In this document: positions 58,050 to 59,076 of the stretch, in pieces | How the letters are laid out: each line of letters opens with the position of its first letter | Numbering within the stretch: the stretch's first letter is position 1 | Assembly: GCA_017533605.1 (NCBI GenBank) | Contig: JAFWKF010000005.1 | Location: 1 to 59,076, forward strand | From: Candidatus Saccharimonadota bacterium | GTDB lineage: Bacteria; Patescibacteriota; Saccharimonadia; Saccharimonadales; Saccharimonadaceae | Length of the DNA stretch: 59,076 bases | Direction: 5' to 3' | Notes under the pieces: generated by a model | What the model was told of the DNA's origin: nothing | The model's input: only the letters and a program-made list of their open reading frames with translations | Databases searched by the model: none | Program-made: the position numbers and the translations under genes

Positions 58050-58334
58050 ATGGATGACTATGATGAATATGACGACGAGGATTATGGCCTCGATAAAGAA
58101 GACGACGATTTAGACGAAGAAGAAAGTAGCAACGATGATGGCTACTATGACGCTTCTTATTATGAAGCTCTTGGCATAGACGACGGCCGCTTTGACCGAG
58201 AACATCACATGCTCCCTCACTCCGGTTTTGGTTCTTCTGTTAATTTAGAAGAGCTCGACGAAGATCAGCGCGAAGCTTACGAACTCGGCTACGGCATCGG
58301 TGCAGAAGATTATGATCTGCACGACGACAATTAG
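58050..58334 (+). CDS. Short Asp/Glu-rich acidic protein
   Basis: The 94 residues are dominated by Asp, Glu and Tyr; the C-terminal third (LDEDQREAYELGYGIGAEDY) may fold as a helix-turn. No family is recognised. The ATG is six bases after TATAAT (58038-58043), preceded by TGC: a leaderless start. The 3' end overlaps the convergent 58331 gene by four bases. Confidence 0.65.
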   Translation: MDDYDEYDDEDYGLDKEDDDLDEEESSNDDGYYDASYYEALGIDDGRFDREHHMLPHSGFGSSVNLEELDEDQREAYELGYGIGAEDYDLHDDN

Positions 58335-58768: not shown

Positions 58769-58831
58769 GTTTTTATTATATCACCCAACAAACCACTTGC
58801 ATTTTATATCGTAATCATTTACAATTATCTT

Positions 58832-58907
58832 AATAGCAAGTGCTAGAAACTTGCTAGGTCTACGGGAGACCTTACTGTTCAAGATCGGCTTGGACAGTAA
58901 TTTTTTT
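58832..58907 (+). ncRNA. Novel small RNA of three tandem hairpins
   Basis: TTGCAT (58797-58802) and TACAAT (58820-58825), 17 bp apart, predict an RNA starting near 58832. It folds as TAGCAAGT/ACTTGCTA (58834-58856), AGGTCT/AGACCT around ACGGG (58856-58872), and TTACTGTTCAAG/CTTGGACAGTAA (58872-58900) followed by seven T residues. So a complete small transcription unit of about 76 nt with almost no unpaired sequence is visible. It has no sizeable reading frame and matches no class I know. It is antisense to the end of the 58872 small ORF. Confidence 0.75.
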
Positions 58908-58955
58908 AGTTTTAGGTTTACGAGTTAGTTTGAAATGAAATTCAATCTCTAGCAT
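58872..58955 (-). CDS. Possible 27-residue basic peptide
   Basis: ATG at 58955 follows a strong GAAAGGAG site at five bases. The frame (starting MLEIEFHFKLTRKPK) is lysine-rich and stops at TAA inside the terminator stem of the opposite-strand small RNA. It could be the last short gene of an operon entering from beyond the window edge. Confidence 0.4.
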   Translation of the reverse strand: MLEIEFHFKLTRKPKTKKITVQADLEQ

Positions 58956-59019
58956 CGCGACTCCTTTCGTTTTTGTTTTCACAAAATACTACGGAAATCT
59001 ACAACCCGACTATCTAGCA

Positions 59020-59076
59020 TCATCGCGGCAGATTCCCGTTGAGAGATTCGACCCTAACGGCCCACCATCCAGAACC
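59020..59076 (-). CDS. C-terminal end of an ORF cut by the window edge
   Basis: A minus-strand frame runs in from outside the window and ends at TGA (59020-59022), its last residues reading WWAVRVESLNGNLPR. A 14-codon frame begins at an overlapping ATG. Too little is present to identify it, and coding status is uncertain. Confidence 0.25.
   Translation of the reverse strand, partial: GSGWWAVRVESLNGNLPR

Follow-up and report, generated by a model that had tools for sequence, protein, structure and literature searches.

Most known type I toxins are hydrophobic transmembrane helices. In hok/sok, a metastable leader is combined with an antisense RNA, Sok, that covers the leader region of the hok mRNA, and many chromosomal paralogues exist. 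The hok mRNA also adopts a 5'-3' closed fold (PMC6733600). The fst/RNA II pair of par(pAD1) is expressed from convergent promoters and overlaps at a terminator hairpin, with a leader that is able to cover the Shine-Dalgarno (SD) sequence; such loci are small and are also found on chromosomes (PMC7472228). Fst itself is a transmembrane helix; the terminator of par(pAD1) works in both directions, and complementarity between its sRNA and leader arises from direct repeats (PMC7472228). The aapA/IsoA systems of Helicobacter are present in several chromosomal copies, each with a cis-overlapping antisense RNA, a 5'-3' interaction within the mRNA, and alternative leader structures that can mask the SD (PMC6733600).

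Here we describe a locus at the end of a 59,076-nucleotide stretch of Saccharibacteria DNA (the window), in which an sRNA lies opposite a small peptide gene. The sRNA is very probably a true antisense regulator of this gene. We also favor, with moderate confidence, the view that the sRNA belongs, as the antisense partner, to a small two-gene module that occurs repeatedly and would work like a type I toxin-antitoxin system, based on the convergent small genes, the structured leader, the antisense coverage of the open reading frame (ORF) end and 3' untranslated region (3'UTR), the 5'-3' contact, the many copies, and the preferential survival of the antisense gene. That the peptide is a toxin seems similarly plausible. 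The features of the sRNA strand are as follows.

58797 to 58825, plus strand: predicted sRNA promoter, read from the sequence (-35 TTGCAT at 58797 to 58802, 17-bp spacer, -10 TACAAT at 58820 to 58825)
58832 to 58907, plus strand: predicted antisense sRNA transcript of about 76 nt, with an inferred start and its end at the T7 terminator
58834 to 58856, plus strand: sRNA hairpin 1, with a conserved CUAGRAA loop; 7 of 7 tested pairs changed on both sides in relatives
58857 to 58871, plus strand: sRNA hairpin 2, present only in the subclade of the window; an unpaired linker containing GGUUGG in other members
58872 to 58907, plus strand: sRNA hairpin 3 (58872 to 58900) and T7 (58901 to 58907), an intrinsic terminator; 11 of 13 pairs changed on both sides

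The initial annotation had placed a self-contained sRNA with a promoter, three hairpins, and a T7 run at 58797 to 58907. All of these elements are present, and the predicted RNA folds with an MFE of -31.8 kcal/mol, compared with -17.8 +/- 3.1 kcal/mol for shuffled sequences (z = -4.48; 0 of 200 shuffles as good). It is matched by our covariance model, R1, over 58833 to 58907 (65.6 bits), and it fits no known family, as had been supposed, since Rfam yielded no sRNA match at either the gathering or a relaxed threshold. The description of the promoter as near-consensus with 17-bp spacing holds for the spacing, which is retained in 59 of 76 relatives, but not for the sequence, since TTGCAT-17 bp-TACAAT has only 8 of 12 consensus bases; a generic promoter scan made no call at 58797 to 58825. 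The equivalent position in family members nevertheless reads TTGAC(G/T)-17-TATAAT, and at least 10 of 12 consensus bases are found in 41 of 76 copies, relative to 0.5% of shuffles. In many copies, among them L012, L047, and L046, an inverted repeat overlaps the sRNA promoter or flanks it on both sides (CTACCATTA..TATAATGGTAG and related sequences). A perfect stem of at least 9 is present in 28 of 74 copies versus 1.4% of shuffles, but the repeat differs in sequence from copy to copy; it may represent an operator or a 3' hairpin of the mRNA.

The compensatory changes whose absence from relatives was to count against the sRNA were readily found. Among 48 aligned members, 18 of the 20 pairs of hairpins 1 and 3 exhibited changes on both sides, with 156 double-changed cells relative to 57 in shuffles and a covariation score of 0.417 (shuffles, 0.204 +/- 0.011; slid alignment, at most 0.139). 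The loop is the most conserved part of the sRNA. The three-hairpin form, in contrast, holds for the window and its subclade only, as the typical family sRNA consists of two hairpins and an unpaired linker. Within the subclade, the middle stem has its own compensatory change, being GGUCU/AGACC in the window and L084 and GCCU/AGGC in L079 and L080.

The sRNA was also said to overlap the 3' end of a small ORF on the other strand and hence to be possibly antisense, and both statements were borne out: the complement of its terminator hairpin encodes the last codons of the minus-strand ORF at 58872 to 58955. The features of this strand are listed below.

58841 to 58847, minus strand: loop UCUAGCA in the 3'UTR of the peptide mRNA, the antisense counterpart of the sRNA hairpin 1 loop and partner of the leader motif
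58872 to 58955, minus strand: peptide gene, stop included (MLEIEFHFKLTRKPKTKKITVQADLEQ, 27 aa), with homologues at 70+ places in the genus and under purifying selection
58956 to 59076, minus strand: structured 5' leader of the peptide mRNA, with leader homologues; cut by the contig end, its promoter and 5' end lying outside the window (full-length relatives, L080 and L084)
58961 to 58967, minus strand: SD of the peptide gene, AAAGGAG, conserved in intact members
58991 to 59002, minus strand: leader strand 3, GUAGAUUUCCGU, located 5' to the SD; forms a predicted 12-bp duplex with strand 2 in the window
59013 to 59019, minus strand: leader motif UGCUAGA, with complementarity to the loop in the 3'UTR; a 6-nt motif within it covaries with that of the sRNA loop (68 of 72 copies)
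59028 to 59040, minus strand: leader strand 2, AACGGGAAUCUGC, with alternative pairing to strand 1 or strand 3
59069 to 59076, minus strand: leader strand 1, GGUUCUGG, lying in part beyond the contig end; pairing with strand 2 is possible, own partners pairing better than exchanged ones

Outside the sRNA overlap, the pN/pS of the peptide ORF was 0.24 when pooled and 0.18 among the nearest neighbors; judged by this purifying selection and its SD, the ORF is a real gene. Family members are 23 to 34 residues long (e.g., MEIEFYFRFKRKPKTKKVTVVVEDEQ and the more distant MRRRFVFALVVRLFRKEITIRIEW and MKNSLTLALKFGSKTKKVTIRFEW) and cationic, and for most of them the hydrophobic moment is higher at strand than at helix periodicity. 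An AlphaFold model of the peptide consists of two strands at low confidence (pLDDT 61), and the peptide is probably a cationic beta-hairpin. It had no family match in Pfam, NCBIfam, or PADLOC and no convincing one in PHROGs. A viral origin was considered and rejected, since a back-translation pattern of the peptide found no true member in IMG/VR.

By BLASTN of related genomes, another copy was detected in the window's own genome, and four further genomes of the genus also had copies; of 174 genomes of the genus, 45 gave a match in a peptide search, and covariance model R1 detected 99 places in 55 of 170 genomes, with up to six in one genome. The 97 sRNA-bearing copies that we examined all belong to the window's Saccharibacteria genus. 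Titled records bearing the peptide were Saccharibacteria assemblies, mostly from the guts of sheep, goats, yaks, and water buffalo. A spread across Patescibacteria was not seen: order-wide peptide, sRNA, and leader searches gave confident matches in this one genus only. Weak profile matches outside the genus (E above 0.004) lacked sRNA or leader support and were set aside, and peptide-pattern matches from other phyla or from viral contigs proved to be unrelated sequences.

Paralogous copies have about 390 bp in common, from roughly -215 to -240 up to +153 relative to the start codon, and nothing outside this unit, which sits between unrelated flanks, several times per genome; many copies, the window's included, lie at contig ends. 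The flanks were varied, and no recurrent gene or linked cargo was seen among the neighbors. Relatives of a very acidic 94-aa ORF (MDDYDEYDDEDYGLDKEDDDLDEEES..., 58050 to 58334, plus strand) lie near these loci in other genomes of the genus. A motif, AAGCCTAGGCGG / GCCTAGGCTTAA, recurs just outside the unit, upstream of the leader promoter, and is sometimes duplicated (L010, L060, L063, L099, L100, and L188); L100 has an apparent second, ORF-less unit in tandem. Given the very small genomes of Saccharibacteria and their life on other bacteria, several module copies in a genome of ~0.7 Mb need explaining.

The sRNA is not self-contained in most of these places, since 78 of the 97 are two-gene units in which an SD-preceded peptide ORF, usually with a structured leader, lies opposite. 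In these 78, the SD and ORF are intact, whereas in the other 19 the sRNA was kept and the start, SD, or reading frame was lost. All intact peptide genes that we found were accompanied by the sRNA (78 of 78), and peptide and leader searches turned up no intact ORF that lacked an sRNA, although the searches favor sRNA-bearing copies and type A leaders were left out of the leader models. The intact count includes L013 and L101, whose ORFs have altered C termini. Because some of the 19 copies are related, independent ORF losses are fewer; we estimate about a dozen such events. Internal deletions that fuse the leader to the terminator hairpin occur in L185, L098, and L201 of one genome and in L186, L189, and L191; they remove the SD and ORF start and leave the sRNA intact. 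Apparent leader-only copies in G186 and G033 were rejected as plain terminators.

These patterns bear on a rather unlikely alternative, in which the sRNA regulates, as a cis-antisense RNA, a small protein that is not toxic and acts, for instance, on the epibiont envelope or the host bacterium, so that the locus would be a regulated small gene and not an addiction or defense module. Such a protein would agree with a conserved, soluble-looking peptide that is under purifying selection, matches no toxin family, and is patchily present in about a third of the genus, but both multicopy, dispersed units and loss of the ORF from units that keep the sRNA are less expected of a useful host gene.

The full-length leader of the peptide mRNA is about 190 nt long and lies between a second, inward-facing promoter and the SD. 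It contains a conserved hairpin whose inner helix covaries. The G-rich strand 2 found better partners in its own strands 1 and 3 than in those of other copies (0 of 5,000 permutations for each, in a test in which kinship between copies remains). Since the strand 1-2 and strand 2-3 pairings overlap, the leader is probably a switch. The SD could also be covered by the downstream one of these strands in many copies. L009 (G000:C6:38915-38992) and L207 have an intact ORF, SD, and sRNA, and the conserved leader is absent from them.

Copy by copy, the leader and the sRNA loop carry an identical N-CUAG-N motif. Given the antisense orientation of the sRNA relative to the mRNA, this identity makes the leader complementary to the loop in the 3'UTR of its own mRNA. 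Six leader:3'UTR base pairs are possible in 68 of 72 copies, a count made after four leader motifs (L057, L065, L192, and L213) had been reassigned by eye. Among distinct motif pairs, 28 of 31 can pair, compared with 8.7 expected (0 of 20,000 permutations, with kinship between copies remaining in the test). Rare changes are followed by both sides (CCAG/CCAG, CUGG/CUGG, CUAGU, and CUAGC), and nearly every deviation at the -1 position or within the core combines a leader U with an sRNA C, which leaves a U-G pair. In the flanks of the 6-nt motif, Watson-Crick agreement was not above chance. This pairing presumes an mRNA that extends through the 3'UTR hairpin, and the lack of a T-run after the peptide stop codon fits an mRNA that runs on in this way. 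The peptide mRNA would accordingly have the 5'-3' long-distance interaction that marks aapA/IsoA-like regulation. We also considered direct leader-sRNA kissing via the CUAG palindrome and rejected it, since 12 of 31 motif pairs were compatible with it versus 8.4 expected (1,034 of 20,000 permutations as high) and CCAG/CCAG and CUGG/CUGG break the kissing interaction.

At the DNA level, the leader and sRNA motifs are inverted repeats. These, the position of the ~390-bp unit between unrelated flanks, and its abrupt ends near the two outer -35 boxes are what would be expected if the unit were mainly a non-autonomous mobile DNA element, its motifs serving a trans-acting transposase or integrase and its RNAs being incidental. 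We regard this as improbable, since the hairpins covary as RNA, the -1 and core deviations almost all keep a U-G pair that would be meaningless for DNA, the peptide is under selection, and the promoters, SD, and terminator are conserved; a recurrent neighbor gene was likewise not seen. Least probable of all is that the main targets of the sRNA are other mRNAs, reached in trans with the CUAG loop as a seed, and that the ORF overlap is secondary, because although 19 copies have an sRNA and no ORF and the loop is so well conserved, a common trans target would not make the loop covary copy by copy with the leader of its own unit.

Under the type I-like reading, the full-length peptide mRNA would be held inactive in a 5'-3' closed fold. 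The sRNA would pair with the 3'UTR loop first and then with the ORF end, which would block or destroy the mRNA, and the unopposed peptide, as a cationic probable beta-hairpin, would harm the cell. A bolder extension, which we put forward tentatively and consider doubtful, is that the locus represents a self-spreading RNA-peptide element of a new class. Mobile, ~390 bp long, and lacking a transposase of its own, it would persist by means of a toxic beta-hairpin peptide under antisense control, and its sRNA would displace the leader from the 3'UTR loop that both share.

We know of no earlier type I-like system in Patescibacteria, and a small search of the open-access literature found none described there. 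If the module is a toxin-antitoxin system, it would extend type I systems to this phylum, add the cationic beta-hairpin as a class of toxin peptide to the usual transmembrane helices, and introduce an mRNA logic in which a single 3'UTR loop is contested by leader and antisense RNA. The covariation supplies definite base pairs for mutation.

As in a type I system, a small peptide gene here faces an opposite-strand RNA with real complementarity to its ORF and 3'UTR, and both are conserved. Like par(pAD1), the module combines a small peptide mRNA with a short antisense RNA from convergent promoters, overlapping at a terminator hairpin, has a structured leader that could cover the SD, and occupies small chromosomal loci. 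It falls outside the Fst family, however. The peptide has no Pfam or NCBIfam match and, unlike the transmembrane helix of Fst and the hydrophobic helices of most type I toxins, is cationic, mostly amphipathic at beta periodicity, and probably a beta-hairpin. The shared hairpin is not a bidirectional terminator, since the T-run is on the sRNA side only, and the leader motif, in contrast to the par(pAD1) direct repeats, has the same sense as the sRNA loop and is hence complementary to the mRNA 3'UTR. With aapA/IsoA, the module shares several chromosomal copies, a cis-overlapping antisense RNA, a 5'-3' interaction, and alternative leader structures possibly masking the SD; it differs in its peptide, in belonging to Patescibacteria, and in a contact that is a 6-bp motif pairing on the very loop that the antisense RNA covers. 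With hok/sok, it shares an antisense RNA and many chromosomal paralogues and would share the 5'-3' closed mRNA fold and the metastable leader, whereas its antisense RNA covers the ORF end and 3'UTR and Sok the leader region. The layout of the module is closest to that of par(pAD1), and the logic of its mRNA closest to that of aapA/IsoA and hok.
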